A program made the position numbers and the translations under genes. Under the pieces are notes generated by a model. It saw only the letters and a list, made by a program, of their open reading frames with translations. It was not told the DNA's origin and ran no database searches. Positions 19,978 through 57,792 of a stretch of 64,000 nt of DNA are shown here, one piece after another. This stretch comes from Promicromonospora umidemergens (GTDB lineage: Bacteria; Actinomycetota; Actinomycetes; Actinomycetales; Cellulomonadaceae): contig NZ_JAMTCT010000014.1 in NCBI RefSeq assembly GCF_024171995.1, forward strand, positions 1 to 64,000, read 5' to 3'. Position 1 is the first letter of the stretch; every line of letters begins with the position of its first letter.

Positions 19978-20042
19978 TGGTTGTGGGCGCGATGGTTGCG
20001 CGTCTGTGTCCCTGACAGGCGCAATGATCGCGCCCACAACCA
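19978..20042. terminator. Long bidirectional terminator hairpin
   Basis: Arms TGGTTGTGGGCGCGATGGT and its near-complement close a stem of about 24 bp (19978-20001 with 20019-20042; two mismatches) around a 17-base loop. It lies between convergent genes, the XRE regulator and the CocE hydrolase, and would serve both. Confidence 0.8.
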
Positions 20043-33349: not shown

Positions 33350-35611
33350 ATGCTCGCTTCCCCCGGAACCACCGTCGACTCGCACTGCCCCTACTGCGCC
33401 CTGCAGTGCGGGATGTCGCTGACGCGGCTCCGAGCGGACGTAGCGGGCGCACCCGAGGTGCAGCCCCGCGACTTCCCCACCAACCGGGGCGGGCTGTGCC
33501 AGAAGGGGTGGACGTCGTCGGCGGTGCTCGGGGCGTCCGACCGGCTCACCACCCCGCTGGTCCGGGCCGAGTCCGGCGAGCTGGAGCCGGCGAGCTGGGA
33601 CGTGGCGCTCGACCTGGTCGCGTCCCGGCTTGCCGCCCTGGCCGCCGAGCACGGACCAGAGTCGGTGGCGGTGTTCGGCGGGGGCGGGCTGACCAACGAG
33701 AAGGCCTACGCACTCGGCAAGTTCGCGCGCACCGTGCTGCGCACCCCGAACATCGACTACAACGGCCGGTTCTGCATGGCCTCCGCTGCGGCCGGGATGA
33801 ACAGGTCCTTCGGCGTCGACCGCGGGCTGCCGTTCCCGCTGGCCGACGTCGGGGGCGCGCAGGCGGTGCTGCTCCTCGGCTCGAACCTCGCCGAGACCAT
33901 GCCACCGGCCGTGCAGCACCTCGCGGGGGCGCGGGCGGCGGGCGGGCTCGTCGTCGTCGACCCGCGGCGGTCCGCGACGGCGCGGCTTGCGAGCGATCCT
34001 TCGTCGGAACAGCCGGCAGAGGGCGTGCACCTCGCGCCCGTGCCCGGCACGGACCTCGCGGTGCTGCTCGGGCTCCTGCACGTGGTGCTCGCGGAAGGTC
34101 TCGCCGACCGGGAGTACCTCGCGGAGCGCACCACCGGGTTCGACGACGTCGCCCGGTCCGTCGCGGGCTGGTGGCCCGAGCGCGTCGAGACCGTGTCGGG
34201 CGTCCCCGCCGACGACCTCCGGCGCGTGGCTCGGCTGCTGGCCGCCGCCGCCCTGGTGCACAGCGGCACCGGCGCCTACGTGCTGACCGGCCGCGGCGTC
34301 GAGCAGTCCACGCAGGGCACCGCGACCGTCACGGCGTCGATCAATCTCGCGCTCGCCCTGGGCCTGCCTGGCCGCGTCGGGTCCGGGTACGGCGCGATCA
34401 CGGGGCAGGGCAACGGGCAGGGCGGCCGGGAGCACGGCCAGAAAGCCGACCAGCTTCCCGGCTACCGCAAGATCGACGACCCGGCGGCGCGCGAGCACGT
34501 CGCCGCCGTCTGGGGCGTCGACCCGGAGACTCTGCCAGGGCCCGGCCTCCCGGCGGTGCAGCTGCTCAGGTCCCTCGGAACGCCGACGGGTCCGCGCGCG
34601 CTGCTCGTGCACGGCTCCAACCTCGTCGTCAGTGCCCCCAACGCGAACCGCGTCGTCGACCGCCTCAAGAGCCTCGACCTCCTGGTGGTGTGCGACTTCG
34701 TCCCCAGTGAGACGGCGCTGCTCGCCGACGTGGTGCTCCCCGTGACCCAGTGGGCCGAGGAGGAGGGCACCATGACGTCGCTCGAGGGGCGGGTCATCCG
34801 CCGCCGGGCCGTCGTGGCGCCGCCGGGCGAGGCACGGTCTGAGCTGTGGATCCTCGCCGGTCTGGCGCGCCGCCTCGGCGCGCCCGAGGCCCTGGCCTTC
34901 CCGACCGACCCCGCGGCGGTGTTCGACGAGCTGGCCCGCGCCTCCGCCGGCGGCGTGGCCGACTACTCCGGGCTCTCCCACGCCCGGCTCGACGCCGACG
35001 AGGCGTCCGGCGGCCCTGGCCTGTTCTGGCCGGTCCCGGCCCGCCCTGCCGACATGTCGGACCCGCAGGTCACCGGAGTGAAGCGTACGTCCGACACGAA
35101 CGGGCATCCCGGGACACCTCGGATGTTCCTCGAACGGTTCGGCACGCCGGACGGACGGGCGCGCATGGTCGCCGTCGACCACGTGGGGCCGAGCGACGAC
35201 GTACGGCCCGGCGCCCCGTTCTACCTTGTCACCGGCCGGGTGCTGCAGCACTACCAGTCCGGCGCGCAGACGCACCGCGTCGCGGAGCTGGAGCGCCTCG
35301 TGCCCGAGCCGTACGTCGAGCTGCACCCGGTGCTGGGTTCCCGGATCGGTGTGCCCGACGGCGCCCGCGTGCGCCTGACCAGCTCGCGGGGCAGGGTCGA
35401 GGCGACGGCCCGCTGGACCGACGCCGTCCGCCCCGACACCGTCTTCATGCCGTTCCACTGGAGCGGTACCGGATCCGTCAACCAGGTCACGACCGACGCC
35501 ACCGACCCGATCTCCGGGATGCCGGAGTTCAAGGTCTGCGCCGTGGACGTCTCGGTGGTCGAGCCCGCCGAGAGCCCGGCGTCCGCACTACAGAAGGAGC
35601 TCTCGACATGA
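33350..35611 (+). CDS. nasC: Assimilatory nitrate reductase, molybdopterin catalytic subunit
   Basis: 753-residue cytoplasmic molybdopterin oxidoreductase that reduces nitrate to nitrite. The N-terminal [4Fe-4S] ligands are C13, C16, C20 and C50 (HCPYCALQCGM, GGLCQKGW). Mo-bisMGD domains follow (YNGRFCMASAAAGMNRSFG, LLLGSNLAETMP, ITGQGNGQGGREHGQK, ETALLADVVLPVTQWAEEEGT). The C-terminal dinucleotide-binding domain has TGRVLQHYQSGAQT and VFMPFHWSGTGSVNQVT. Residues ~568-584 (DMSDPQVTGVKRTSDT) are foreign: they are encoded by a palindromic element and interrupt the usual WP-HPGTPR-F segment. Start ATG is two bases after narK. Its stop overlaps the next gene. Confidence 0.92.
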   Translation: MLASPGTTVDSHCPYCALQCGMSLTRLRADVAGAPEVQPRDFPTNRGGLCQKGWTSSAVLGASDRLTTPLVRAESGELEPASWDVALDLVASRLAALAAEHGPESVAVFGGGGLTNEKAYALGKFARTVLRTPNIDYNGRFCMASAAAGMNRSFGVDRGLPFPLADVGGAQAVLLLGSNLAETMPPAVQHLAGARAAGGLVVVDPRRSATARLASDPSSEQPAEGVHLAPVPGTDLAVLLGLLHVVLAEGLADREYLAERTTGFDDVARSVAGWWPERVETVSGVPADDLRRVARLLAAAALVHSGTGAYVLTGRGVEQSTQGTATVTASINLALALGLPGRVGSGYGAITGQGNGQGGREHGQKADQLPGYRKIDDPAAREHVAAVWGVDPETLPGPGLPAVQLLRSLGTPTGPRALLVHGSNLVVSAPNANRVVDRLKSLDLLVVCDFVPSETALLADVVLPVTQWAEEEGTMTSLEGRVIRRRAVVAPPGEARSELWILAGLARRLGAPEALAFPTDPAAVFDELARASAGGVADYSGLSHARLDADEASGGPGLFWPVPARPADMSDPQVTGVKRTSDTNGHPGTPRMFLERFGTPDGRARMVAVDHVGPSDDVRPGAPFYLVTGRVLQHYQSGAQTHRVAELERLVPEPYVELHPVLGSRIGVPDGARVRLTSSRGRVEATARWTDAVRPDTVFMPFHWSGTGSVNQVTTDATDPISGMPEFKVCAVDVSVVEPAESPASALQKELST
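35051..35098 (+). repeat. In-frame palindromic element, copy 1 (inside nasC)
   Basis: GACATGTCGGACCCGCAGG through GTCCGACACG; outer arms pair over 10 bases with one wobble. It is read as DMSDPQVTGVKRTSDT in the nasC frame. The phase is identical to the copies in nirD and the SUMT gene. Confidence 0.75.
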
Positions 35612-37233: not shown

Positions 37234-37240
37234 CCAAGCG

Positions 37241-37304
37241 TCGCCTACCCAGCGATCGGGTCCATAAGCTGCAACAGAAGTGGGCCGGATCGCTGGGTAG
37301 GCGA
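37241..37304. repeat. 17-bp perfect inverted repeat with 30-base loop
   Basis: TCGCCTACCCAGCGATC (37241-37257) and its exact reverse complement (37288-37304) bracket 30 bases. It starts 8 bases after the nasB stop. It could terminate the narK-nasC-nasB transcript or mark the end of the segment inserted before nirB. Confidence 0.7.
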
Positions 37305-37352
37305 GCAGGCGCCACCTGCCGCGTCCCCTCGTGCATGTCTCGCCGGAGACGG

Positions 37353-37396
37353 TAACATCGATGTTAGTAACTTCAATGTTACTAACATCGATGTTA
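37353..37396. promoter_or_regulatory. Three tandem 14-bp palindromes, operator array
   Basis: TAACATCGATGTTA (37353-37366), TAACTTCAATGTTA (37368-37381) and TAACATCGATGTTA (37383-37396) sit at a strict 15-base period. The outer two are perfect palindromes. They end 5 bases before an ATG at 37402 that opens the truncated ATPase locus. Confidence 0.8.
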
Positions 37397-37433
37397 GTGA
37401 GATGGCGGATGTCGGGGTACCGGGGCGCCCAGC

Positions 37434-38693
37434 GTGTTCTTCACGGCGTCCGGCCGGTCGATCAGGGACGACCTCGCGGCGTTTGCTGAGGACGTCGCGA
37501 CATCCACGCTGCCCGGCGCGGAACTGTTTGCCGGGGATCCGCCGTCGAGCTGGGACAATGCCTTCCGTCTGCTCGCAGCAGCGCTACCGGCGGACGGGCC
37601 ATCGATCGTGGTTCTGGACGAGCTGCCCTACGTGACGTCCGCAGACCGGGGCTTCGAAGGAGTGCTGCAACGGCACTTTGACCGTGAGTTCAGCAGGCGG
37701 CCTGTGCTCCTGATCGGGATCGGCTCCGACCTGGCAATGATGGAGGCGCTCAACGACTACGACCGGCCCTTCCACCAGAGGGCGACCGAGATGGTGGTGC
37801 CGCCGCTGTCGCCTTCCGAGGTTGGACGGATGCTCTCCCTCGAAGCCGGTGACGCTCTGGACGCCTATCTCGTGACTGGTGGCTTCCCGTTGATCTGTCG
37901 TGACTGGGGGCAGGGCAACGACCTGTGGTCATTTCTCGAGTCAGCCCTCACACACGCGACGTCGTCGCTCCTGGTCAGTGCTGAGCGTTCGCTGGCTGCC
38001 GAGTTTCCGGGTGATGTTCAGGCCCGTCGTGTGCTGGAAGCGATCGGACAGGGCCAGAGACGCTTCAGCGATATCGGCTCGAAGGCCGGGGAGATCAAGG
38101 GCACGCCTCTCACCAGATCATTGGAGCTGTTGAGGGCAAAACGTGTAGTCACGGCAGAACGCCCGCTCTCGCTCAAGACTTCGGCCGATACGAGATATCG
38201 GATCGATGATCCGTATCTCCTGTTCTGGCTTCGATTCCTGGGGCCGCACCTCGCCGAGATCGAACGAGGCCGCGGTGACAGGGTGCTCCAGCGGATCCGT
38301 GACGAATGGACACGATGGCGTGGGCGTGCGATCGAGCAGGTCGTCCGGGAGTCGATCGCACGAATGTCCCACGAGGGCTTGCAGGTACCCGCTGACGCTG
38401 CGATGGCGGTCGGAGGTTTCTGGAATCGCACCAACACCGTCGAGGTCGACCTCGTTCTGGCCGACAAGGAACCGGTCGCGAAGAGCATCTTCGGCGTCGG
38501 CTCGGTCAAGTGGACTACCAAGCCCTTCGGTGTCAAGGAACTAGAAGATCTGCTCGCGCATCGCACCCAGGTGCCTGGCGCAACCGGCAGCACTGGCCTC
38601 GTCGTTGTCAGCCGTACCGGCGTCGACGACCGGGTCCGTGCGTCCGGGGCTGTGGTGCTCGGCCCTGACGATCTGCTTGCCCAATGGGCATAG
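37434..38693 (+). pseudogene. Archaeal-type (DUF234/COG1672) ATPase lacking its Walker A N-terminus
   Basis: The 420-codon frame starts (GTG 37434) at FFTASGRSIRDDLAAFAEDV, which in complete homologues follows about 45 residues carrying the P-loop (VGR and GRRRVGKS-type motifs). What remains is intact: Walker B SIVVLDELPYVTS, LLIGIGSDLAMMEALNDYDRPFHQRA, DALDAYLVTGGFPLICRDW, the winged-helix region, and the C-terminal DUF234 nuclease-like fold (NTVEVDLVLADKEPV, VGSVKWTT). An ATG at 37402 with MADVGVPGRP is in a different frame, so a deletion appears to have fused the promoter to mid-gene. Without Walker A it should not bind ATP. It interrupts the nitrate locus between nasB and nirB. Confidence 0.75.
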
Positions 38694-38802
38694 CCGCTGC
38701 GGGTGCACCATTCTTCCGACCGACAGGTTGAACCATGTCTGACCGACAGAATGTTCCCGCTTTGATCGCCATGTTGCCGGGCCGGGCCTGCCGCTGCAAC
38801 GG

Positions 38803-39480
38803 TCACACCGGCCGGGTCCACTCCAGCGTGTAGCGGAAGAACAGCCGGCGCCGGAGCCGCGCTCCCGGCGGCACCCGGCGCACCGCCCGAGAGATGTCCG
38901 CGAACGTCTCAGCGGGGTCGCGCATCGGCAGCGGCGGGCCGCCGTCGTCCACAGGTGCCGTGACCGGCCGCGGATGCCTGACCATCCCGACCAGCGGGTT
39001 GAGCAGCGAGGACGGCAGGTCCCAGGCGAGGTCGGTCAGCGTTTCCGCCCGCGCCAGGCCGACGACGAGCAGCCGGCCGCCGGGCTCCAGCAGCTCGGCC
39101 GCGTGCCGCAGCGAGGCCTCCAGCGGCAGGTGATGCAGGACCGCGACCATGGTGATCGTGTCGAACGTGCCGTCGACCTTCTCGAACCGCGCGTGGCGCA
39201 CGCTCACCACCGGGTCGCCGGCGAACCGCTCGGTCGCGACGCCGGCCATGGCGGCGTCGGCCTCCACGCCCAGGGCCTCGTCGAAGCGTCCTCGTAGCCG
39301 GCTCAGCAGCAGGCCGGCGCCGCAGCCGACGTCGAGCGCCCGCCGCCGTCGGGTTGGGAGCCGCCGCAGGATCCAGCCGTGGAAGTGGTCGTTGTGGCTC
39401 CACGGGTGCCTGTCGTTGACCCGGCGAAGCCACCGACCGCCGGCTCGGACGATCGGGTTGGGCACGGTCCGGATGTCCAT
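38803..39480 (-). CDS. Class I SAM-dependent methyltransferase
   Basis: 225-residue Rossmann methyltransferase. ATG 39480 begins MDIRTVPNPIVRAGG. Motif I is RALDVGCGAGLLLSRL, the acidic residue after beta-2 is in ALGVEADAAM, and motif post-I to IV is FDTITMVAVLHHLPLEASLRHAAELLEPGGRLLVVGLA. The C-terminus (PGARLRRRLFFRYTLEWTRP) resembles ubiquinone/menaquinone-type or small-molecule methyltransferases; the substrate is unknown. It is divergent from the Fic gene with an 84-base shared regulatory region containing the Fic-type operator. Confidence 0.85.
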   Translation of the reverse strand: MDIRTVPNPIVRAGGRWLRRVNDRHPWSHNDHFHGWILRRLPTRRRRALDVGCGAGLLLSRLRGRFDEALGVEADAAMAGVATERFAGDPVVSVRHARFEKVDGTFDTITMVAVLHHLPLEASLRHAAELLEPGGRLLVVGLARAETLTDLAWDLPSSLLNPLVGMVRHPRPVTAPVDDGGPPLPMRDPAETFADISRAVRRVPPGARLRRRLFFRYTLEWTRPV

Positions 39481-39499
39481 GTGGTCACCGTAGCGGCGC

Positions 39500-39553
39500 G
39501 AAACTTGGAGTAAGGCGGCCTCGTTAATCCAAGTTTCGCCGAAACTTGGATTA
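39500..39553. promoter_or_regulatory. Operator repeats in the methyltransferase-fic divergent region
   Basis: TAATCCAAGTTTC (39525-39537) and GAAACTTGGATTA (39541-39553) form a perfect 13-bp dyad around GCC. A third half-site GAAACTTGGAGTAA lies at 39500-39513. All sit within 65 bases of the Fic start and 75 of the methyltransferase start. Confidence 0.8.
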
Positions 39554-39564
39554 GCGTGGGGTGC

Positions 39565-40770: not shown

Positions 40771-40874
40771 CCCGAGCACGCTCACCAGCCCACGCTCGGC
40801 CCTGTGAGGAAGATGTTCGGCCCGGGTAACGACCGGCGCACCAGCGCGAAAAACCCGCGCCCTACGGTCAAGAC

Positions 40875-43469: not shown

Positions 43470-43906
43470 CCGCCAACGACGTGTCAGAGGTACAGGCCAC
43501 CGGAGTGACCTGGGGTTCTGACGGCTCGGCGGTGGCCAGGTGGGAGCGCGCGTGCTTCCTCACGGACCTGTTCCCCGAGCGGGGTGCGGCGGCGCTGTTC
43601 GGCAACGTACAGGTGGCGCTCTTCCGGCTGCCGGAGGACCCGCTGGACCCCGCCGACGGCGGACCGGTCTACGCGGTCCAGAACCTCGACCCGTTCTCCG
43701 GGGCGTACGTGATGTCCCGCGGGATCGTCGGTACGCGCGCCGGTGTGCCCACGGTGGCCGCTCCTGTCTACAAGCAGGTGTTCTCCCTCGTCACCGGCGA
43801 GTGCCTGGTGGCAGCGGACAAGGCCCCCCAGGGCGACCTTCCGCCGGACCTCAGGACCTACGAGGTGGAGATCCGGGACGGCGTGATCCACGTAGGCCTG
43901 CCGTGA
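43466..43906 (+). CDS. nirD: Nitrite reductase small subunit, Rieske-like
   Basis: 146-residue NirD of the Rieske-fold family, partner of NirB. ATG 43466 overlaps the nirB stop. The core runs WERACFLTDLFPERGAAALFGNVQVALFRLP, AVQNLDPFSGAYVMSRGIVG, YKQVFSLVTGECL and YEVEIRDGVIHVGL. The cluster ligands of true Rieske proteins are absent, as usual for NirD. Residues 5-21 (DVSEVQATGVTWGSDGS) are not part of the family core; they are encoded by a palindromic element that lengthens the N-terminus. The stop overlaps the next start (GTGA). Confidence 0.92.
   Translation: MTANDVSEVQATGVTWGSDGSAVARWERACFLTDLFPERGAAALFGNVQVALFRLPEDPLDPADGGPVYAVQNLDPFSGAYVMSRGIVGTRAGVPTVAAPVYKQVFSLVTGECLVAADKAPQGDLPPDLRTYEVEIRDGVIHVGLP
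43478..43528 (+). repeat. In-frame palindromic element, copy 2 (5' end of nirD)
   Basis: GACGTGTCAGAGGTACAGG through TCTGACGGCTCG. TCAGA...TCTGA and CAGGCCAC...GTGACCTG pair around CGGA. Read in the nirD frame as DVSEVQATGVTWGSDG, the same phase as copies 1 and 3. Confidence 0.75.
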
Positions 43907-44742
43907 CGCCCTCGACGACGGGGCGGGTGACGCTCGTCGGGGGTGGGCCCGGGGCATCCGACCTGCTGACCCTGCGGGGGTGGCGGGCGCTGCAGGCGGC
44001 CGACGTCGTCGTCGCCGACCGGCTGGGGCCCGTCGAGGTCCTCGCCGAGCTGCCGCCGCACGTCCGCGTGGTCGACGTCGGCAAGGAGCCCGGCCGGCAC
44101 CCCGTGCCCCAGGAGCGCATCAACGAGCTGCTCGTCGAGCACGCTCTGGCGGGTGCCCACGTGGTCCGGCTCAAGGGTGGCGACCCGTTCGTGCTCGGCC
44201 GCGGCGGCGAGGAGGTCATCGCGTGCGCGGCCGCCGGCGTGCCCGTCGAGGTGGTGCCGGGCGTGACCTCCGCCGTCGCCGTGCCGGGCCTGGCCGGGAT
44301 CCCGCTCACCCACCGCGGTGTCACCACGGGCTTCCACGTGGTCTCGGGCCACTGCGCACCCGACGTGTCAGACCCCCAGGCCACCGGAGCGACCCGCACG
44401 TCGGACACGTCGGGGCCGCTCGACGACGCCGCCGTCACCTGTGTGCGGGACGCCACGGCTACTCTTGTCGTATTGATGGGGGTGCGGTCCCTCGGCGCGA
44501 TCGTGGCGCAGTCCCTGGCCGCCGGCGCCGATCCCGGAACCCCTGTGGCGATCGTGGAGAACGGTTCCACGTCGGAGCAGCGCGTCACACGGGCGCGTCT
44601 CGAAGAGGCGGCCGATGTGGCAGCGGCCCGTGGTGTGCGGTCACCCGCGGTCGTCGTCATCGGCCGCGTGGCAGCGGCGGGACTCCTGGTCGAAACGGTG
44701 GAGGGTACGAGTGAGCGACGTCTGGCAGGTGCCGGTGTCTGA
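43903..44742 (+). CDS. cobA: Uroporphyrinogen-III C-methyltransferase (SUMT)
   Basis: 279-residue SAM-dependent enzyme that methylates uroporphyrinogen III to precorrin-2 for siroheme, the cofactor of NirB. GTG 43903 overlaps the nirD stop. Signature motifs: VTLVGGGPGASDLLTLRGWRALQAADVVVADRL, GKEPGRHPVPQERINELLVEHA, VVRLKGGDPFVLGRGGEEV, EVVPGVTSAVAVPGLAGIPLTHRG. Residues ~154-170 (DVSDPQATGATRTSDTS) replace or extend a loop between VVSGH and LVVLMGV and are encoded by the palindromic element. The C-terminal ENGSTSEQRVTRARLEEAADVAA is normal. Position after nirBD ties siroheme supply to nitrite reduction. Confidence 0.92.
   Translation: MTPSTTGRVTLVGGGPGASDLLTLRGWRALQAADVVVADRLGPVEVLAELPPHVRVVDVGKEPGRHPVPQERINELLVEHALAGAHVVRLKGGDPFVLGRGGEEVIACAAAGVPVEVVPGVTSAVAVPGLAGIPLTHRGVTTGFHVVSGHCAPDVSDPQATGATRTSDTSGPLDDAAVTCVRDATATLVVLMGVRSLGAIVAQSLAAGADPGTPVAIVENGSTSEQRVTRARLEEAADVAAARGVRSPAVVVIGRVAAAGLLVETVEGTSERRLAGAGV
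44361..44412 (+). repeat. In-frame palindromic element, copy 3 (inside the SUMT gene)
   Basis: CGACGTGTCAGACCCCCAGG through CGGACACGTCG; the outer arms CGACGTGTC and GACACGTCG are perfect complements. It is read as DVSDPQATGATRTSDTS in the SUMT frame, the same phase as copies 1 and 2. Confidence 0.8.
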
Positions 44743-45886: not shown

Positions 45887-45930
45887 CGCTCCGCTCGCGA
45901 CCTTCGCGAGCTTTCTCGCTGCCGACAGCA

Positions 45931-45986
45931 TCGTTCTCTCGTTCCCGCTCGTCAGGGAGCATGAACAGGGAGAGGGGACGTCCTCG
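45931..45986 (+). promoter_or_regulatory. Conserved upstream block of ECF unit A
   Basis: TCGTTCTC (45931) and GTCAGGGAGCATGA (45951) followed by a GGGAGAGGGG purine run, with 36 bases from GTCAGGG to the start codon. The same elements at the same 20-base spacing precede unit B, so they likely contain a shared, perhaps autoregulated, promoter. Confidence 0.6.
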
Positions 45987-47813
45987 ATGACGCAGTGGGA
46001 GGTCGAGCTCACCGAGCTCGCGACGAGACGTGGCGGGGCGCTCGTCGGGTACGCGTACTCGTTGTGCCAGGACCGGGCACAGGCCGAGGACCTGGTGCAG
46101 GACGCGCTGGTGAAGGTGTTCTCGCGCCTGCGCCGCCCGACCGGGTCGGGCGACGGCGGGCAGGACGTCGTGCACCTGGATCAGCCGCAGCGCACGAACA
46201 CGGAGGGGTATGTTCGCCGGGCGATCCTGACGATCTATCTCGACGGTTACCGGCGGCAGAAGAACTGGTCCGGCTTCAAGCACCTCCTGGCCGACGACGA
46301 CCGGTCGCCGGCCGCGGACCGGGTCGCCACCGCGCGGGTCGACGTCGGCGTGGCCCTGGCCCAGCTCTCCCCACGGCAGCGTGAGGCCGTGGTGCTGCGC
46401 TTCTTCGAGGACCTGACCGTGCCCCAGATCGCGGCGGCCCTCGGGACGAGGCCGGGCACCATCAAGCGGTATCTGTCGGACGCGATGGAGCTGTTGCGCG
46501 CCTCGCTCGCAGAGGTCGTGGCGCCCGAGACGGACAGCTCGCTGGACGAGCGGCTCGACGTGGTGGCCGGCGCGGTGCGGCGCCGTCGGGCAACGAAGGT
46601 GGGCGCTGTGGCGGGCGTGTCGATGGTCCTGGCCGTGGCGCTCGTCTGGGGTGCGTGGGCGGTCGAGCCGTGGATCCGGTCGGAGCCGCTGCCGGCGGAC
46701 GACAAGGTCGAGTACACGCCGGGTTACGTGCCGGGCAACTGGTCCGACGATGCCGGCGTGTACTGCGGGATGCCGGTCGAGGAGCTCGAGGCGTTGGACG
46801 CTGGCACCTTCGAGGTGGAGGTCACCGGGGGTCTTGCTCCGCGAGCGGATGGCACCTCCACCTCCTGGGAGGTTCCGGTGACGGTCACCGGGACCGTTCC
46901 CGACGACATGGCCGACGACGAGCGCGGGTACTTCATGACCTCACCGCTGATCGTGTGGGCCCAGGACGGCCGGGTCGTCGACCTCGGCACCGGGTGGCGC
47001 GAGATGGACTCGGAGGTCTCGTCGGCACTGTCGGAGGAGGGCGCCTGGAGCGGGCCGGCGACGGCGGGCAACTCGACGACGTGCCTGGAAGACACCCTCG
47101 TGGAAGGCGGCGTCGGTGACGAGTACGACAACGAGCGCCCCGGGGCGAGCTACGAGCTACGCGTGGTCATGACCGACAGCTCCGCCTCCGGACAGGCTGA
47201 TGGGCAGCCCGATCTCCTGGTCAGCGATCCGGCCACCGTGGACCTGGACAGCGGTGTCGCGTCGGCGCCGACCTTCGGGGCGCCGTCGGGCGACTGCAGC
47301 GGGGCCGCCTACGCGGGCCGGGGCCTGAGGGCGCAGGATCTCCCGGAGCGGACGAGAGCCGCCACCGCCGAGCTCCTCGCAGCGGTCATCACCTGCGACG
47401 AGAGAAAGGTCGCCGAGCTCGGCGGTGCGCTGGACACGGCGCCCCTCTCGCAGTCGGTGTCGCCGTCGGTCAACGAAGTGTTCGCGCTGCCCGAGGCCGA
47501 CGGCCAGGTCCCGTACGCGACCGTCGCGCGACTCCTGACCGAGACCCGCCCAGCCGTCGACGCGTCGGGACTGGCCTGGCCCTGGCCCCGGGTGTCCAGG
47601 TCGGTCGACGACGACGCGGCGTGGCAGGAGGCGATCGACGCCGGCGCCATCACCGAGGAGCAGGCCGCGACCGACCGCGCGAAGGGCGTCTACACGGGAT
47701 GGCGGCTGGAGGTCGACGACAACGGCGAGCCGAGCCCGGTGACCTGGCGGGGCTTCTACGAGGGCGACGACAGCTGGTGCTCCAGGCCGGACGCCGAACC
47801 GGGGTGCAGCTAG
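45987..47813 (+). CDS. ECF sigma factor fused to a transmembrane ectodomain (unit A)
   Basis: 608 residues. Residues 1-175 are a complete SigE-type ECF sigma factor: region 2 AQAEDLVQDALVKVFSRL and YVRRAILTIYLDGYRRQ, region 4 LSPRQREAVVLRFFEDLTVPQIAAALG and TIKRYLSDAMELL. A linker ends in RRRRATKVG, then one membrane span (~205-227, GAVAGVSMVLAVALVWGAWAV). The extracellular part has the CGM module (VYCGMPVEELEAL, LIVWAQDGRVVDLGTGW, paired Cys, YELRVVM) and a C-terminal module (GDCSGAAY, EVFALPEADGQVPYATVARLL, AWQEAIDAGAITEEQA). The sigma domain is thus tethered to the membrane in the same chain; release or membrane-local action is inference. Unit A starts the five-unit array. Confidence 0.85.
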   Translation: MTQWEVELTELATRRGGALVGYAYSLCQDRAQAEDLVQDALVKVFSRLRRPTGSGDGGQDVVHLDQPQRTNTEGYVRRAILTIYLDGYRRQKNWSGFKHLLADDDRSPAADRVATARVDVGVALAQLSPRQREAVVLRFFEDLTVPQIAAALGTRPGTIKRYLSDAMELLRASLAEVVAPETDSSLDERLDVVAGAVRRRRATKVGAVAGVSMVLAVALVWGAWAVEPWIRSEPLPADDKVEYTPGYVPGNWSDDAGVYCGMPVEELEALDAGTFEVEVTGGLAPRADGTSTSWEVPVTVTGTVPDDMADDERGYFMTSPLIVWAQDGRVVDLGTGWREMDSEVSSALSEEGAWSGPATAGNSTTCLEDTLVEGGVGDEYDNERPGASYELRVVMTDSSASGQADGQPDLLVSDPATVDLDSGVASAPTFGAPSGDCSGAAYAGRGLRAQDLPERTRAATAELLAAVITCDERKVAELGGALDTAPLSQSVSPSVNEVFALPEADGQVPYATVARLLTETRPAVDASGLAWPWPRVSRSVDDDAAWQEAIDAGAITEEQAATDRAKGVYTGWRLEVDDNGEPSPVTWRGFYEGDDSWCSRPDAEPGCS

Positions 47814-47870
47814 CCTCCGGCGTCCCCGCAGTCGGTACGGGCTCGACGGTTTTTCTCGTCACCCGCATCA

Positions 47871-47925
47871 TCGTTCTCCTCTCCCCACCCGTCAGGGAGC
47901 ATGAGAGGGAGAGGGGGCGTCCGAC
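47871..47925 (+). promoter_or_regulatory. Conserved upstream block of ECF unit B
   Basis: TCGTTCTC (47871) and GTCAGGGAGCATGA (47891), same 20-base spacing as upstream of unit A, then GGGAGAGGGGG before the ATG at 47926. Confidence 0.6.
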
Positions 47926-49734
47926 ATGGCGCAGTGGGAGACGGAGCTCGAGGAGCTCATGGCGCGGCGCAGCCGCGCGCTGGTCGGCTATGCGTTCACG
48001 CTGACGCGCGACGTGCCGCGGGCCGAGGACCTGGTGCAGGACGCGCTGGTCAAGGTGTTCTCGCGCCTGCGCCGTCCGGCCGAGACCGGCGGCGGCGGCG
48101 GAAAGAGCATGCACCTGGACCAGGACGAGCCCCGGCTGACCAACGTGGAGGGCTACGTGCGCCGGGCGATCCTGACCATCTACCTGGACGGCTACCGGCG
48201 GCAGAGCAGCTGGACGGGCATCAAGCACCTGCTCGCCGACGACGCCTTCGCGCCCGCGGCGGAGCGCGCCGCGACGGCAAGGGTCGACGTCGGTGTGGCG
48301 CTCGCGCGCCTGTCCCCGCGGCAGCGCGAGTCGGTGGTGCTGCGGTTCTTCGAGGACATGACGGTGCCCCAGATCGCGCAGACGCTCGGGACGAGCCCGG
48401 GCACCATCAAGCGGCACCTGTCCAACGCGATGGAGCTGCTGCGCACGTCGCTCGCCGAGATGAACGTGCCGGAGATGGAGACCTCCTTCGAGGACCGGCT
48501 CGGCGCCGTATCGGGTTCGGTCCGTCGCCGTCGGGCCGTGAAGGTCGGTGCCCTCGGCGGGGCCACGCTGGTGGTGGCGGGTCTGCTGGCCGTCGCCGCG
48601 CTGTGGGGGCCAGACCGCCTCCTGTCGGAGCCGGTGCCGCCGGCCACCCCGAGCCCCGGGGTGTCGAACGGGGCGGTCGGCGCCGGCTGGGCGCCCAGCG
48701 GCTGGCGCGCGAAGGGCCCGCAGTTCTACTGCGGCATGGAGGTGACGGAGCTGGTGTCGTCGTCCGACACGGTGCGATTGGAGCTCACTGGTGACGCCGA
48801 GCTCGTGGAAGGTGTGGAAGATGGCACGGGGCCCCCGGACGACCATCTGGCCGCGCCCATCCGGATCACCCGGACCGGGGCCGATGGCCTGTCCCTCGAC
48901 GGCCAGTTCCCCCAGCTGGTCTTCGCGCAGGACGGTCTGGTGGTCGACATCAGCGGGGGCTGGAACGAGGGCGGCGGGTACGTCCTGCCCGACGCCGGTG
49001 AGTCCGCGGAGGCCGTCGCCGAGGCGAGCGCTACCACCGCATGCGGACAATGGACGACGAACAGCGCGCTGCCCTTCGAGACGTACCTGGACGCGCGCCC
49101 GGCGGGCACCTACGACGTCTACGCGGTGCTGCCGTGGAGCGAGTACTCGGGCCCGAGCGACTTGACCGGTACAAGCCGCTTTGCCGTCAGCGGGCCGGTC
49201 ACCATGGCGGTTCCGGCACTCGAGGTGCCGGAAGAGGAGCCGCTGACCGTGGACATCCGCGACGGCTACCAGCCGCCGTGGCTCGAGGGGACGAACCTGG
49301 CCTGTGGGGCCTATGCGTCCGGAATCCCGGGAGACTGGCAGGTGCCCTGGGCGGGATCGATCCTGGAGCTGAGGGCCGAGGACCAGCTGGAGGGCGCCCC
49401 CCAGGACAGGGTGACGGTCACGTTCACCGAGACGGAGGGAGAGGCCGTCGACACGACTCGTACGCCGTTCACGACGGTCTGGCTCAGTGACGGGCGTGTG
49501 GTGGGTGTCGGCCGCGACGTCTGGTCCGATCCGGTGGAGCCCCTTGGCGTCGACGCGAAGGGCGAGACGTCCGTCGTCGTGTCGATCGAGCCCGACCGGA
49601 CGTGTCTCAAGAACCCGGACGCCGAGCTGCCCGCCGGGGGCTACGACGTGTACGCCCTCGCGGAGCTCGATCCGGGCGCGGGGGGCGAGCGGGAGCTCAT
49701 GCTGACGAACGCCGTCTACTACGCCGTGGACTGA
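47926..49734 (+). CDS. ECF sigma factor fused to a transmembrane double ectodomain (unit B)
   Basis: 602 residues, paralogue of unit A. The sigma part (1-178) has PRAEDLVQDALVKVFSRL, YVRRAILTIYLDGYRRQ, LSPRQRESVVLRFFEDMTVPQIAQTLG and GTIKRHLSNAMELL. RRRRAVKVG leads into one membrane span (~207-228). The ectodomain contains two CGM-like modules in tandem. The first is FYCGMEVTELVSSS, LVFAQDGLVVDISGGW and GTYDVYAVLPW. The second is DGYQPPWLEGTNLACGAYASG, TVWLSDGRVVGVGRDVW and GGYDVYALAELD. The C-terminal EVFALPE module of unit A is absent. Each module carries two Cys suited to a disulfide. Ligand unknown. Confidence 0.85.
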   Translation: MAQWETELEELMARRSRALVGYAFTLTRDVPRAEDLVQDALVKVFSRLRRPAETGGGGGKSMHLDQDEPRLTNVEGYVRRAILTIYLDGYRRQSSWTGIKHLLADDAFAPAAERAATARVDVGVALARLSPRQRESVVLRFFEDMTVPQIAQTLGTSPGTIKRHLSNAMELLRTSLAEMNVPEMETSFEDRLGAVSGSVRRRRAVKVGALGGATLVVAGLLAVAALWGPDRLLSEPVPPATPSPGVSNGAVGAGWAPSGWRAKGPQFYCGMEVTELVSSSDTVRLELTGDAELVEGVEDGTGPPDDHLAAPIRITRTGADGLSLDGQFPQLVFAQDGLVVDISGGWNEGGGYVLPDAGESAEAVAEASATTACGQWTTNSALPFETYLDARPAGTYDVYAVLPWSEYSGPSDLTGTSRFAVSGPVTMAVPALEVPEEEPLTVDIRDGYQPPWLEGTNLACGAYASGIPGDWQVPWAGSILELRAEDQLEGAPQDRVTVTFTETEGEAVDTTRTPFTTVWLSDGRVVGVGRDVWSDPVEPLGVDAKGETSVVVSIEPDRTCLKNPDAELPAGGYDVYALAELDPGAGGERELMLTNAVYYAVD

Positions 49735-49827
49735 TCGGGCAGGCAGCGAAGCCGCAGACCAACGAAACCTCCCGGCGGCGCGTCATGGTGCATGTGGAGA
49801 CGATGACAGCACACACGCACCCGGGAG

Positions 49828-50412
49828 GTGGCCATGGCGGGATGGGAGAGCGAGCTCGATGAGCTCATGCGAGTGCGCGGCAGCGCGCTCGTCCGCTACG
49901 CCTACATGCTCTCGGGCGACCGCGCGCTCGCCGAGGACCTGGTCCAGGACGCGCTGGTCAAGGTCTACTCGCGGCTGCGCGGCCGGCCCGCCGTCTCCGG
50001 GGCGGTGGGCGTGCCCGAGGGCAGCCGGGCGCACGACCTCGACTCCCCGTTCACGAACGCCGAGGGCTACGTGCGACGGGCGGTGCTCACCATCTACCTG
50101 GACGGCTACCGCAAGCGGCAGCGCTGGACCGGGATCAAGCATCTCCTGGCAGACGACCTCAGCAGCCGTGGTGCTGACCATGCCGCCTCGGCGCGGATCG
50201 ACGTGATGGCGGCGCTCGCGCGGCTCGGCGCTCGCGAGCGGGCCTGCGTCGTGCTCCGCTACTTCGAGGACATGACGGTGCCGCAGATCGCGGAGGTCCT
50301 GGGTACCGCCCAGGGAACTGTCAAGCGGTACCTGTCTGATGCCACCAAGAACATGCAGGAGTTCCTGCGCCCCGACGACTTCCGACCTGCCGAAGGGAGG
50401 GCTGCCCGATGA
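49828..50412 (+). CDS. ECF sigma factor (unit C)
   Basis: 194-residue SigE-type ECF sigma factor without a membrane segment. ATG 49828 with GGGAGGTGG upstream; an ATG six bases later is possible. Region 2: LVRYAYMLSGDRALAEDLVQDALVKVYSRLRG and AEGYVRRAVLTIYLDGYRKR. Region 4: LARLGARERACVVLRYFEDMTVPQIAEVLGTAQGTVKRYLSD. The stop overlaps the start of its membrane partner (ATGA). Upstream, GAAACC followed by CGTCAT after 14 bases (about 49765-49790) is a possible ECF-type promoter. Confidence 0.9.
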   Translation: MAMAGWESELDELMRVRGSALVRYAYMLSGDRALAEDLVQDALVKVYSRLRGRPAVSGAVGVPEGSRAHDLDSPFTNAEGYVRRAVLTIYLDGYRKRQRWTGIKHLLADDLSSRGADHAASARIDVMAALARLGARERACVVLRYFEDMTVPQIAEVLGTAQGTVKRYLSDATKNMQEFLRPDDFRPAEGRAAR

Positions 50413-52160
50413 ACATCGACCGTAACGACAGCTGGAACGACGACGACTTCCTGAGCGGCGCGCTCCGTGGCGCCGCCGACAACATTCCCGGTGGGGAGGT
50501 GGACGACCTGCACATCTCGTTCGGAGTGGTGCGTGACCGCGTGCGGCGCCGTCGCGCCGCCAAGATCGGCAGCCTCGCGGGCGTCAGCCTCGTGCTGGTG
50601 GGCGGGATCGCCTTCGGCGCTACCAAGACGCCGCTGCTGGACAGCGATGCGCCGGTGCTTCCCGGCGAGTCCCAGAGCGCGTTCATGACACCGGGACCGG
50701 ACGACTCCGCGAGCGATACCGCGACCCAGGCGCCGGAGCCGGTCCCGAGTGGGCCGCCCGCCCGGGACATCATCCAGTTCGACTACACGCCCCCGTGGCT
50801 CACGGAGATCGACAGTGGGCGCCTGACGTGCGGCATGCCCGTGGACGAGCTCGAGTCGACGGCGGCCGGTTGGTCGGTCACAGCGGCCGGTGACATCTAC
50901 TCCAAGGTCGAGAACTACTCGGGCGTCTCGTCACCAGCCTTGGGCATGGCGGCGACGTTCCAAGGAGGGGATGGCTCGCTCGACGTGGCTCCGACTCTCG
51001 TGTGGAGCCAGGACGGCGTGGTGGTGGACCTGGGCTTGAACGTCTTCGAAGGGGCCGGCCCGCAGACCGAGCCGCTGCTCGGATCCGGGGGCGGAGCCGT
51101 CGAGGCCCAAGGCCGTTCGGCGTCATCGTGCATACCGACCGGGACGAGCGACGTCTTCGAGACATCGCTCCCGGACGGCGACTACGAGGTGCGCGTGGTC
51201 GCCTTCCCGGAGGTCGTCTCAGGCCAGTGGGGGACGGCGGTGAGCGAGCCGGTAGAGGTCCGCTTCGACGGCACCGGCGTGCACAGCCCGACCGGGACAC
51301 GCGGCGGCACGGCGACCATCGAGCCCCTGGCGCCCAACGAGGACGAGCTGACCCGGTTCGTGCTCGACCGCAGCACCGACTGGGTCCTGGCGCAGCAGGA
51401 GCAGAGCAACTACAGCTCGACCGATCCCACGCGGGTCACCGCTCAGTGCGAGAGCGTGAGCACCGGAGACTCGGTGCCGTTCGAGATAGTGGTGCCGTCG
51501 ACCCAGGATGTGGTCGGCTCCGGCTCCATCGATTGCGACGCCACCGAGCAGGTCACCGACGTCGAGGTGCCGGACGTCGGCGGGGAGGTCCTCGACATCC
51601 GGCTGGGTGATGTACCCGACGGCGTCGTGCGGCTCGAGGCCGTCCTCGCCCCGAGCGGCGGTGACGGGGGTGACGCCGCAGCTGACTGCTCGGCCAGCGG
51701 CCTGACCATGGAGTACGACCCGAGCCGTTCGCCGAGCGAGGGCGCGAGCACGACCGCGCGGGCCATCGTGACGGCGGCCCAGGACTGCGACGTCGACCGG
51801 ATGGTCGAGCTGGCCACGCAGCACCCCACGGAGCTGATGGTCACCGCCGAACCCGCTGAGGAGGTCTTCGCCCTGCCGGAGGGCGACGAGCAGCACTACC
51901 GCACCCTGGTCGCCCTGCTGGCCGGCACCGGTGGCGCGTTCGACGGCGCGGACACCGCCAACCGGAACGTGGTGTGGCCGCGGGTCGCCACCGAAGAGTT
52001 CCGCGACTCCGACGAGGCGTGGCGGGAGGTTGTGACCGCGGGCCTGCTCACCGAGGAGCAGGCTGACGCCCAGCGGGCCGACGAGCTGTTCGGCTACACA
52101 GGGATGGAGGTCGCCATCGATGAGGCGGGGGCCTGGAGGATCTACGCCGCCACCCCTTGA
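50409..52160 (+). CDS. Membrane-anchored ectodomain protein, putative anti-sigma/sensor (unit C)
   Basis: 583 residues, one membrane span (~51-70, IGSLAGVSLVLVGGIAFGA) after a short cytoplasmic segment ending RVRRRRAAK. The extracellular part has three recognisable parts. First is the CGM module (LTCGMPVDELESTAAGWSV, LVWSQDGVVVDLGLNVF, YEVRVVAFPE). Then a middle beta-rich region (FVLDRSTDWVLAQQEQSNY). Last is the C-terminal module (DCSASGLTMEYDPSRSPS, EEVFALPEGDEQHYRTLVALLAGTGGAF, SDEAWREVVTAGLLTEEQADAQ). No zinc anti-sigma motif (HxxxCxxC) is present, so the way it restrains its sigma factor is unknown. Same architecture as the unit E protein. Translationally coupled to the sigma gene. Function inferred from pairing and from the A/B fusions. 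Confidence 0.8.
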   Translation: MNIDRNDSWNDDDFLSGALRGAADNIPGGEVDDLHISFGVVRDRVRRRRAAKIGSLAGVSLVLVGGIAFGATKTPLLDSDAPVLPGESQSAFMTPGPDDSASDTATQAPEPVPSGPPARDIIQFDYTPPWLTEIDSGRLTCGMPVDELESTAAGWSVTAAGDIYSKVENYSGVSSPALGMAATFQGGDGSLDVAPTLVWSQDGVVVDLGLNVFEGAGPQTEPLLGSGGGAVEAQGRSASSCIPTGTSDVFETSLPDGDYEVRVVAFPEVVSGQWGTAVSEPVEVRFDGTGVHSPTGTRGGTATIEPLAPNEDELTRFVLDRSTDWVLAQQEQSNYSSTDPTRVTAQCESVSTGDSVPFEIVVPSTQDVVGSGSIDCDATEQVTDVEVPDVGGEVLDIRLGDVPDGVVRLEAVLAPSGGDGGDAAADCSASGLTMEYDPSRSPSEGASTTARAIVTAAQDCDVDRMVELATQHPTELMVTAEPAEEVFALPEGDEQHYRTLVALLAGTGGAFDGADTANRNVVWPRVATEEFRDSDEAWREVVTAGLLTEEQADAQRADELFGYTGMEVAIDEAGAWRIYAATP

Positions 52161-52205
52161 TGTGATCGCTTGAACCGGACGGCTGGATCGTGTCCCAACG
52201 CTTTC

Positions 52206-52241
52206 TGTGCCCCGCTCGTATCAGTGTGTGAGCGGGGCACA
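52206..52241 (+). terminator. Perfect 12-bp hairpin after unit C
   Basis: TGTGCCCCGCTC (52206-52217) and GAGCGGGGCACA (52230-52241) enclose 12 bases. It lies 46 bases after the unit C stop and before unit D. Confidence 0.75.
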
Positions 52242-52307
52242 GGGGCCCGCCGCGGCGAATGGGACGAACATGACCGGTGAGGCCTTCAGACAGCGGGCGG
52301 GGGCATC

Positions 52308-52859
52308 ATGAGCACCCGCTGGGACGAGGAGCTCACGGACCTCGTCACGAGCAGAGGGCGCGCCCTCGTCGGGTACGGGTACGCGCTGACGGGTGACGTC
52401 CGGCGGGCAGAGGACCTGGTCCAGGATGCTCTGGTGCGCGTCTTCCGGCGGTTCCGCCGTCCCGAGGCCGCGGGCACGTCCGGTCGCACCGAGTTTCCCC
52501 TGAACGACGACGGAAACCACGCGGGCATCGAGGCCTACGTGCGCCGGACGATGCTCAACCTCTACATCGACGAGAGCCGCCGGTTCGCGCTGTGGCGCAA
52601 GGCCGAGCCCAAGCTGGCGGGGCCGGACCGGATCAAGGCGCCGGCGTCGGACATCACTGCCCGCGCGGACGTGACGGCAGCGTTGCGGGGGCTGAGCCCG
52701 CGCCAGCGTGCGTGCGTGGTGCTCCGGTTCTACGACGACCTGACCGTGCCCCAGATCGCCACGACCCTCGGCATCTCGCAGGGCACCATCAAGCGATACC
52801 TGGCCGACGGGATCCACGCGCTGCGTGGGGTGCTGGTGCCGGAAGGAGAGCTCACATGA
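52308..52859 (+). CDS. ECF sigma factor (unit D)
   Basis: 183-residue SigE-type ECF sigma factor. ATG 52308 follows a G-rich stretch (GCGGGCGGGGGCATC). Region 2: LVGYGYALTGDVRRAEDLVQDALVRVFRRFRRP and YVRRTMLNLYIDESRRFALW. Region 4: LSPRQRACVVLRFYDDLTVPQIATTLGISQGTIKRYLADGIHALRG. It is more divergent from A-C in the linker. Stop overlaps its partner's start. Confidence 0.9.
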   Translation: MSTRWDEELTDLVTSRGRALVGYGYALTGDVRRAEDLVQDALVRVFRRFRRPEAAGTSGRTEFPLNDDGNHAGIEAYVRRTMLNLYIDESRRFALWRKAEPKLAGPDRIKAPASDITARADVTAALRGLSPRQRACVVLRFYDDLTVPQIATTLGISQGTIKRYLADGIHALRGVLVPEGELT

Positions 52860-53884
52860 GCGGGCACGACGATCTTGGGTTCGACGCCGACCTCGGCCAC
52901 GGCCGCGACGTCCTGAAGCAGACCATCGGTGCGCTGGTCGACGGGGCCGCACCCTCCGGCGTGCCCAGTACCCCGGAGGAGAACCTCGGCCTCCTGCGTC
53001 GCCGGGTGCGTACCTGGCGTATCGCCAAGGCGGGGGCGGTAGGGCTGACCAGCGCCGTCGTGGTGGGTGTGCTCGCCTTCAGCACCGCACAGGCCTCGAC
53101 CTGGACCCGGTCGGAACCGCTGCCCGGCCGGCCCACCGTGCAGAGCACCGAACGGGGGCCGGCGCCGTCGGAGATCCCGACGACGCGCATGTCGCCCAGC
53201 CCGACGGCGTCCGCGAGCCCGTCGCCATCGCCGTCGCCGTCCAGCACGCCCGAGGCGACGCCGTCGGGAGCCGCTTCCGTCGATCCGACACCGGAGGTGA
53301 GTGCGTCGCCTGCGGAGACCGAGGAGCCTGTGGACCTGATCACCGCGCCGTTCGACGACGGGTACCAGCCATGGGGGGACGCGTATCCCGTGTGGTGCGG
53401 CATGCAGGACGAGGATCTGGTGTCGACGAGCCCGTCGGTGTCGATCGAGATCGTCGGCGACCTGACCTACGAGGGTGGGGAAGACGGACCCAGAAGCGTC
53501 CCGGTCCGGCTCACGGGGGAGATGCCGGGGTACGTCGAACCCGGAAGCGAAGGCGCCACCGAGACCATCGGGAACGAGGCGCTGCTGATCTGGTCGCAGG
53601 GCGGTCGGGTGGTTGACCTCGGCCAGTCGTGGAGGGAGGGCAACTACGAGATCCCGCCCGCGCTCAACGACACGGGGGAGTGGACCGGTGAGGCCTACGC
53701 GTCGTCCTACAGCACCTGCGTCGAAGCGGACAGCTCGGGGGACGGCATGTTCTACGACAACGTGCGCGCGGCTGGGACCTACCAGGTCCGCGCCGTTCAG
53801 GTGCACAACATCGGCGACCCCGGCGCCAGTACCAACGAGGAGTACCTGGTGATCAGTGACCCCGTCACGGTCACCGTCCCCTGA
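52856..53884 (+). CDS. Membrane-anchored ectodomain protein (unit D), short form
   Basis: 342 residues. Cytoplasmic segment DVLKQTIGALVDGAAPSG (shared with unit E as LLKQTFGAMAGG) then RRRVRTWRIAKAG and one membrane span (GAVGLTSAVVVGVLAFSTA). A Pro/Ser-rich stalk (ASPSPSPSPSSTPEATPSG) precedes a single CGM module (VWCGMQDEDLVSTSPSVSIEIVG, LLIWSQGGRVVDLGQSW, STCVEADSSG, YQVRAVQVHN). The EVFALPE module is absent. It is the minimal version of the ectodomain and defines the CGM module's boundaries. A palindromic repeat begins at its stop codon. Confidence 0.8.
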   Translation: MSGHDDLGFDADLGHGRDVLKQTIGALVDGAAPSGVPSTPEENLGLLRRRVRTWRIAKAGAVGLTSAVVVGVLAFSTAQASTWTRSEPLPGRPTVQSTERGPAPSEIPTTRMSPSPTASASPSPSPSPSSTPEATPSGAASVDPTPEVSASPAETEEPVDLITAPFDDGYQPWGDAYPVWCGMQDEDLVSTSPSVSIEIVGDLTYEGGEDGPRSVPVRLTGEMPGYVEPGSEGATETIGNEALLIWSQGGRVVDLGQSWREGNYEIPPALNDTGEWTGEAYASSYSTCVEADSSGDGMFYDNVRAAGTYQVRAVQVHNIGDPGASTNEEYLVISDPVTVTVP

Positions 53885-53932
53885 CGTGTCAGACGCCCGG
53901 GTCACCAGCGTGACCTGGGCGCCCGACATGTC
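53883..53932. repeat. Palindromic element, copy 4 (intergenic)
   Basis: GACGTGTCAGACGCCCGGG through CCCGACATGTC; the two 23-base arms match at 19 positions around CAGC. The would-be peptide DVSDARVTSVTWAPDMSG matches copies 1-3, but this copy is not in frame with the unit D gene. It overlaps the end of the convergent MpaB gene, whose last codons derive from it. Confidence 0.75.
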
Positions 53933-55184: not shown

Positions 55185-55298
55185 CTCCCTATCCTGGCCT
55201 GCCTGCTCGCGTACCCACAGGAATCCGATGCCGAGCTGCCCCAACCTCGGGGCGAGCTGGTTCGTCGATACGGTCAGGACAGCAGGAAGGAGCCGGCA

Positions 55299-57691: not shown

Positions 57692-57713
57692 CTCGTGATC
57701 GCATCGCACCGCC

Positions 57714-57753
57714 GGTCGAGCTCGTCGAGACCTGTCTCTCGACAAGCTCGACC
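57714..57753. repeat. REP-like palindrome
   Basis: GGTCGAGCTCGTCGAGA (57714-57730) and TCTCGACAAGCTCGACC (57737-57753) pair at 16 of 17 positions around CCTGTC. The GGTCGAGCTTGTCGAGA-type sequence is a common dispersed palindrome in actinobacteria. It lies between unit E and the aminopeptidase and may terminate unit E. Confidence 0.75.
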
Positions 57754-57792
57754 TGCGGCGGGGCCTGATCAGCAGGGCGACATAATGGCTCG

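Follow-up and report, generated by a model that had tools for sequence, protein, structure and literature searches.

The window analysed here is the whole 64,000-nucleotide stretch at positions 1 to 64,000 of contig NZ_JAMTCT010000014.1 of Promicromonospora umidemergens, in which a short palindromic element, family F1, lies within three genes of one pathway, nitrate assimilation (nasC, nirD and the SUMT gene), and between two convergent reading frames. All four copies reported in a preliminary description of this sequence were confirmed, position by position (Table 1). F1 is a self-complementary family, as that description had it, although the three genic copies are imperfect palindromes (14-15 of 24 pairs), the intergenic copy being better (18 of 24). 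Read from GAC GTG TCA onwards, all three genic copies are open in a single common phase; the claim that NasC, NirD and SUMT carry them in frame and in one phase therefore stood, while the accompanying remark that they share a strand means little for a palindrome. The SUMT insert appears in the structure model as a disordered loop (residues 153-169, predicted local distance difference test (pLDDT) < 50). The intergenic copy lies directly 3' of the stop codon of the forward open reading frame (ORF) ending at 53884 and overlaps the 3' end of the reverse ORF 53889-56156. At two other Promicromonospora loci, L031 (19948-20005) and L036 (20700-20757), the C-terminal tail of this convergent gene is element-encoded in the usual frame, with a TGA inside the element (tails LSDAQVTEVA and DVSDAQVTGAT, respectively), and the window ORF enters copy 4 in a different frame than these two.

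Ortholog alignment found NasC and SUMT inserts of this family in Promicromonospora only, and the family was absent from the sites in the other genera aligned. The insert sites in NasC and SUMT are linkers that are short and variable in other genera, where the N-terminal region of nirD varies in length too; the assertion that the element interrupts normally contiguous stretches had to be given up, as these stretches are not strictly contiguous elsewhere. The inserts are decayed or gone in some species: copy 1 in P. thailandica (L036) and at L031 and L032, each recorded as P. iranensis, and at the place of copy 2 all seven other Promicromonospora aligned hold related or decayed sequence. The nirD-SUMT junction carries the window's element family at L036 and L108 and a different palindrome, F8, at L033 and L034, all four being read in frame as the SUMT N-terminus, and it is empty in the window, L031, L032 and L035. 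The cleanest filled and empty pair, judged by eye, differs by a 48-bp insertion with about 1 bp of ambiguity.

Table 1. Positions of the palindromic elements in the window and at two loci of other Promicromonospora (window coordinates unless a locus is given)
Element	Family	Position	Genomic context	Encoded peptide	Covariance model (bits)
Copy 1	F1	35051..35098	in frame in nasC (33350-35611 +)	DMSDPQVTGVKRTSDTNG	55.4
Copy 2	F1	43478..43528	in frame, N-terminal region of nirD (43466-43906 +)	DVSEVQATGVTWGSDGS	63.3
Copy 3	F1	44361..44412	in frame in SUMT gene (43903-44742 +)	DVSDPQATGATRTSDTSG	65.2
Copy 4	F1	53883..53932	between convergent reading frames		74.1
Palindrome	F8	L033:13047-13102	in frame at SUMT N-terminus, another Promicromonospora		
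Palindrome	F8	L034:13074-13135	in frame at SUMT N-terminus, another Promicromonospora		
Palindrome	F3	37242..37303	behind a gene		
Palindrome	F5	19978..20042	between convergent gene ends		
Palindrome	F7	57710..57758	behind a gene		

The NirB encoded in the window is closest, among named records, to Promicromonospora sequences (97 % identity). Across the 6.6-Mb source genome, a degenerate pattern derived from the window copies gave 41 matches (27 forward, 14 reverse; at most 2 mismatches), compared with 0 for the reversed-pattern control, and a covariance model built from 24 copies gave 127 matches at E ≤ 0.1, which merged into 65 distinct sites. The first covariance-model search scored the best 150 candidates, and weaker copies may be missed; a second search, over 719 kb of the genome's own sequence around the sites, returned the identical 65. 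The genome thus holds many copies besides the four in the window, which answers the genome-wide check that the preliminary description had asked for. An Rfam search of the window gave 0 matches. In the 24 aligned copies, 46 two-sided changed cells were counted in the arms against a shuffled mean of 26.9, a number that 0 of 500 shuffles attained; the covariation score, the pairing and the two-sided changes per cell each lay above all 500 shuffles, and for two weaker measures 6 and 2 of 500 shuffles attained the observed value. The arms therefore co-vary, and each F1 copy has been kept or made self-complementary.

Counting by frame and location, as had also been proposed, placed 10 of the 65 copies in genes, all in one phase, and 55 in non-coding DNA, with genes assigned by a codon-score script (eight coding copies were called, two, window 44358 and L144, were added by hand, and L119 was counted as non-coding as a stop codon precedes the element despite an in-frame flag). 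Genes are strongly depleted of copies, coding DNA making up 88 % of the sample. The centres of 47 of the 55 non-coding copies lie at most 60 bp from a stop codon, against 9.5 on average and 20 at most in 2000 random draws of intergenic positions, and convergent gaps hold 15 copies against 2 in divergent gaps, though the total length of the latter is twice as great. The distance from centre to stop is exactly 23 bp in eight cases, so that the stop codon falls on the border of the element itself. In other Promicromonospora, two such stop-adjacent sites are variously occupied by F1 itself, by a different palindrome family, by a hairpin that has a short T-run, or by nothing visible, so that the site behind a stop behaves like a terminator slot with a changing occupant; 3' of the hairpins, no T-rich terminator tail was seen. 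Besides the nitrate genes, identified in-gene hosts were a helicase, a DNA glycosylase, a GH39 protein, a PIG-L protein and a pseudouridine synthase.

In the family Cellulomonadaceae these elements form a class with a common geometry, 42 bp with the ends TGTCAG...CTGACA and a 21-bp self-complementary arm, whose interior is likewise self-complementary and is specific to the genome; one genome, G158, has two interior families, both of 42 bp. Tandem copies are frequent, with a period of 60-63 bp. In 38 copies from the Promicromonospora genome G005, self-complementarity was ≥84 % out to 24 bases from the centre, with 61-100 % at the innermost four positions; divergence among copies was 0.34 in the source genome and 0.12 in G005, a biased comparison, as the G005 copies were selected for exact ends. 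In Isoptericola luteus, which has two in tandem, and in Oerskovia enterophila, the NasC linker carries in-frame palindromes whose interiors differ from those of F1; less perfect ones, again of other interiors, occur there in Cellulosimicrobium and Krasilnikoviella. The TGTCAG...CTGACA ends are kept in Isoptericola, Oerskovia and Cellulosimicrobium, and this linker is an insertion hot spot.

An initial count of pattern matches across the family, positive in 79 of 150 genomes against 6 control matches in 5 genomes, was inflated because 51-bp matches in several genomes fall within a stretch of about 3 kb that is conserved between species, presumably the rRNA operon (23S). The pattern also misses families beginning TGTCAGC or TGTCAGT. 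Being both inflated and incomplete, it was replaced by a threshold of at least five matches (hand tally) or by the exact 42-mer. Pattern matches reached 211 per genome (G005) and numbered 8 in the source genome; within a single genus, one species had 2 and another 211. The exact 42-mer was present in 28-96 copies in 12 of 12 family genomes, which had been picked for high counts, with 0 control matches. In an order-wide sample it was found in 14 of 347 genomes, 6 of 29 within the family and 8 of 318 outside it, the latter comprising seven single matches and G244 with seven, against a control of seven single matches; in a phylum-wide sample, 5 of 346 genomes matched, namely the source genome itself, G553 (four matches) and three with single matches. 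Given these sampling counts, the class is largely confined to Cellulomonadaceae. The seven 42-mers of G244 (same order, family f8; loci L228 and L229) lie outside the family, and those of G553, from another family of the phylum, lie far outside it; the latter are four near-identical 42-bp palindromes (TGTCAGGCACTTAACCGAA...) with the ends and length of the class.

Loci fetched from 11 genome sets hold 208 copies, of which 52, spread over 36 genes, are coding, and 51 of the 52 are read in one frame (copies within one gene are not independent). This frame, A, reads [L/V]-S-[D/E/G]...[S/P]-D-[N/T/S] or near it, and is the phase shared by the three genic window copies and by all ten coding copies of the source genome. 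One copy, L222:2771, with two end mismatches and frame B, was left out of the count, and the set labelled G067 by the script includes locus L222 of G048. An intact CTGACA end closes frame B with its TGA; in the sole frame-B case (G244, L229) the gene terminates inside the element. Frame C is open too in 41 of the 51 frame-A copies, in other genera, and is unused in 41 of 41. The explanation that one phase is used since only one frame is open is true for the Promicromonospora consensus, where stops in the other frames suffice to explain the phase, and fails in the other genera. A general excess of open frame-A interiors was rejected as well, frame C being at least as open in G150, G158 and G073, and selection on the peptide is therefore the preferred explanation outside Promicromonospora. 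The used frame gives the more hydrophilic peptide in 8 of 10 genome sets, and at most one third of open used-frame readings contain cysteine in 9 of 10 sets, the unused frame C having one nearly always. Speaking against the peptide argument for Promicromonospora, the frame-A peptide is less hydrophilic in G005 and the source genome, and 85 % of the G005 frame-A readings contain cysteine.

In orthologous genes of different species the insertion sites coincide, either exactly or with an offset of a few residues, while the interiors are genome-specific; these genes include those for a CopA-type ATPase, a LUD-domain protein, biotin carboxylase and the C-terminus of NADH dehydrogenase G. In three species of one genus, the CopA and LUD-domain sites are common pairwise and the interiors differ. 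Common sites with private interiors point to interior replacement or to repeated insertion at hot spots.

A dedicated gene accompanies these elements. In the fetched loci, 17 of 2008 genes had elements at 400 bp or less on either side; four of the 17, from four genomes of three genera, belong to a single protein family. As for the elements being MITEs of an insertion sequence, no transposase was recognized by eye in nine of the 17 doubly bracketed genes and none by Pfam in six. A profile run over 150 genomes separated orthologs, which score ≥160 bits and comprise 26 genes from 23 genomes (five genes being partial or split), from paralogs (≤81 bits). Bracketing by 42-mers at most 223 bp away on both sides, mostly in pairs, was found for 21 of the 26 orthologs, compared with elements within 400 bp on both sides for 13 of 2004 other genes (Fisher 1e-36). 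In G021 the bracketing elements are only poorly palindromic (11-12 of 21 pairs); the partial genes of G128 and G099 have an element on one side, and that of G105 has 42-mers on both sides by coordinates; the gene of G045 and copy 2 of G017 are bracketed by another palindrome, with ends CGTCCG. In G075 and G068 two overlapping frames make up the gene, and in G128, G099 and G105 the profile matches it in part; both are signs that the gene is decaying where its elements persist.

Outside Promicromonospora, the gene was present in 19 of 27 genomes with at least five pattern matches and in 3 of 110 below that count (p = 3e-14); of the three, G056 has elements of a type missed by the pattern. Compared across 23 units, 22 lie in two syntenic loci and that of G005 elsewhere, and the gene qualifies as vertically inherited. 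G158 has two genes, each bracketed by a different one of its two interior families, a pairing that was expected before the second locus was fetched, but not recorded in advance; G139 has two genes and two families as well. Enzyme identity correlated with interior similarity over 19 units (Mantel r = 0.40, p = 0.0002). The source genome itself has paralogs only (54 and 47 bits) and no ortholog by this profile; because of this, and of its 8 pattern matches against 211 in G005, the F1 copies of the window are most likely relics. One source-genome paralog (contig C39, locus L413) is bracketed by F3 palindromes, and 4 of 9 paralog loci pass the bracketing test (five fail) against 1 of 300 random places, which suggests that the arrangement of gene and palindromes is wider than one element family.

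The product of the bracketed gene has about 310 residues (AlphaFold model, pLDDT 83.8), with E208, E254 and D256 invariant and D240 near-invariant among 20 aligned sequences. Its N-terminal 190 residues or so match the AbiEi antitoxin 6y8q (Foldseek, E = 2e-6), Rv2827c (1zel) was also matched in the structure search (8e-4), and AbiEi profiles of PADLOC hit 20 of 20 aligned members and Pfam AbiEi_4 13 of 20 at E ≤ 1. NCBIfam gave no match for five members, and a sequence search of the PDB none. The C-terminus has the pattern L-D-x-x-W ... E-x-D-G-x-G-H ..., with conserved acidic residues. We take this pattern to be DUF559-like. The elements lie at most 223 bp from the gene on both sides, so that an additional gene, such as one for an AbiEii toxin, would hardly fit inside the unit.

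Taken together, we consider it probable that the palindromes form a class of tiny mobile elements resembling REPINs (doublets of repetitive extragenic palindromic sequences, REPs, forming hairpins), with each family tied to its bracketed nuclease-like gene and driven by that nuclease. We infer that the AbiEi-like part of the product would bind and recognize the element and the DUF559/PD-(D/E)XK-like part would cut DNA, and that the element would reach new sites through cleavage and repair or through integration of a hairpin, older copies being overwritten with the current interior. New copies would survive mainly where they are harmless: directly 3' of stop codons, with the hairpin perhaps serving as a terminator, or within flexible loops in frame, one frame supplying a soluble linker peptide there. 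Several points weigh against this account. The nuclease assignment draws on the C-terminal motif and on weak matches, those of Pfam DUF559 in 6 of 20 members (best E 0.035) and those of Foldseek to PD-(D/E)XK folds (E ≥ 0.16). Eight genomes outside Promicromonospora have at least five pattern matches and no gene, and G005 is the sole Promicromonospora with the gene, G006, G008, G009, G010 and G011 having 24-124 matches without it. Common descent could account for part of the Mantel correlation, and neither an insertion in progress nor a target-site duplication was observed. The inverted repeats on either side of an AbiEi-type gene might be operators, and termination is doubtful because no T-run follows the hairpins.

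It is unlikely that nothing moves and that the palindromes are dispersed operators of an AbiEi-like regulator, serving autoregulation and the genome-wide organization or termination of transcription, even though AbiEi antitoxins bind inverted repeats, the bracketed protein has an AbiEi-type N-terminal fold, palindromes flank its gene on both sides and copies are located behind stop codons. The jump in pattern matches from 2 in one species to 211 in another of the same genus, the small differences between G005 copies (a sample chosen for exact ends) and the in-frame copies in unrelated proteins look instead like the spread of copies, and a regulator requires neither a nuclease-like tail nor sites inside proteins. 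That the palindromes are selfish elements of the Rickettsia palindromic element (RPE) type, moved by another activity with the bracketed gene as a passenger or a tolerant defence gene, also seems unlikely, and slightly more so; the in-frame insertions and the several copy-rich Promicromonospora without the gene would fit it, but a passenger would not be expected to be bracketed in 21 of 26 cases, to pair with the two families of G158 or to co-vary with the element interior.

Movement of REP or REPIN elements by a RAYT (REP-associated tyrosine transposase, a Y1 tyrosine transposase) is very unlikely: the genome biology is very similar, with REPs near gene 3' ends, supplying stop codons and sometimes intragenic according to the portions of PMC3733652 considered, but PF01797 had no match in 13 of 13 Promicromonospora genomes, those being the genomes searched, with a control matching 5 of 14 known genomes, and the palindrome bears no unpaired GTAG or CGTC tag. 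We regard as equally remote the idea that these are ordinary terminators, alike by convergence. Stop codons within 60 bp of 47 of 55 non-coding copies and the other hairpins that other species have at two of these sites would suit it, but primary sequence is conserved in scattered copies with fixed ends and length, genic copies are in frame, one gene family is bracketed and a T-run is lacking; convergence is thus contradicted as a full account, while termination may be a side function. A function specific to nitrate assimilation, which the three hosts of one pathway had brought to mind, is barely credible. Neighbouring nas genes do hold 3 of the 10 coding copies, but only 10 of 65 copies are coding, most lie behind genes, the remaining identified hosts are unrelated, copies have decayed or gone in sister species while the genes stay open, and the NasC linker has also taken elements of other interiors in Isoptericola, Oerskovia and Cellulosimicrobium.

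Mobile palindromes driven by the bracketed gene would have close counterparts among known systems. REPIN-RAYT systems of Pseudomonas, E. coli and others, as described in the parts of PMC3116915 considered, likewise combine many small palindromic elements per genome with a dedicated gene, single-copy for each distinct type, that lies between repeats of its own; gene and element diversity are linked there, and the gene phylogeny is largely congruent with that of the species. The gene here, AbiEi-like plus DUF559/PD-(D/E)XK-like, is in contrast unrelated to the Y1 HUH transposase of REPIN-RAYT, and the element is a single 42-bp full palindrome of Cellulomonadaceae with TGTCAG ends, whereas a REPIN is a doublet of REPs. 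The GTAG and CGTC REPs, in the portions of PMC3733652 considered, are also found near the 3' ends of convergent and same-direction genes, supply stop codons, and have intragenic copies, some repeated in one gene; the CGTC families are said there to have no known transposase. These REPs have an unpaired tag and an 8-9 bp stem with a short loop, and the elements here have neither; the string "actinobacteri" occurs 0 times in that paper, and no mention of a single fixed reading frame was seen there.

The likeness in principle to Rickettsia palindromic elements drawn in the preliminary description is borne out, since here too a dispersed palindrome is read in frame inside proteins: the passages considered on RPEs and their Wolbachia counterparts (WPEs) describe palindromes translated in frame in conserved proteins and apparently tolerated (PMC2229807, PMC3733652). 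RPEs are 105-146 bp long according to the portion of PMC2229807 considered, against a fixed 42-bp geometry with a genome-specific interior here, and the same RPE/WPE passages (PMC2229807, PMC3733652) mention no dedicated gene, where here there is a bracketed one. Type IV toxin-antitoxin AbiEi antitoxins (6y8q) have the N-terminal fold in common with the protein here, which adds a C-terminal DUF559-like part and whose gene stands alone between palindromes.

At least eight further dispersed palindrome families (F2-F9) were noted in the source genome, with 2-7 copies each in 0.72 Mb (L111-L162 plus the window), mostly directly 3' of stop codons, F4 and F6 each having one copy in a called gene. 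By eye from the ORF list, ATPase-like, methyltransferase-like (reverse strand) and Fic-like genes stand amid the nas genes at 37434-40785, a block that is possibly an insertion into the nitrate cluster. Similar sigma-factor-like and large secreted-protein-like genes, also seen by eye in that list, follow one another in a tandem series at 45987-55901, which looks like repeated duplication.

Orphan AbiEi and DUF559 proteins are common in actinobacteria. Among the titles and abstract openings listed by searches of open PMC text, none described this class or palindrome-bracketed AbiEi/DUF559 genes. More broadly, we give an even chance to the proposition that every AbiEi-type protein of this kind, with its nuclease tail, sustains and disseminates a full-palindrome family of its own, a large class convergent with REPIN-RAYT in which interiors are repeatedly overwritten genome-wide, sites persist, and proteins go on acquiring the loop peptide in the one frame. 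If this were true, many of the genes that are currently annotated as orphan AbiEi antitoxins or DUF559 proteins would encode element-spreading enzymes, giving such orphan proteins a role and providing a second, unrelated enzymatic route to REP-like repeats, and the spread of tiny palindromes without a gene of their own, together with their position at gene ends, would be explained. The two gene-element pairs of G158 would offer a natural comparison of specificity within one genome. The elements are a recurring source of in-frame loop insertions in conserved enzymes, almost always in one frame, and the evolution of linkers by mobile DNA thereby becomes testable.

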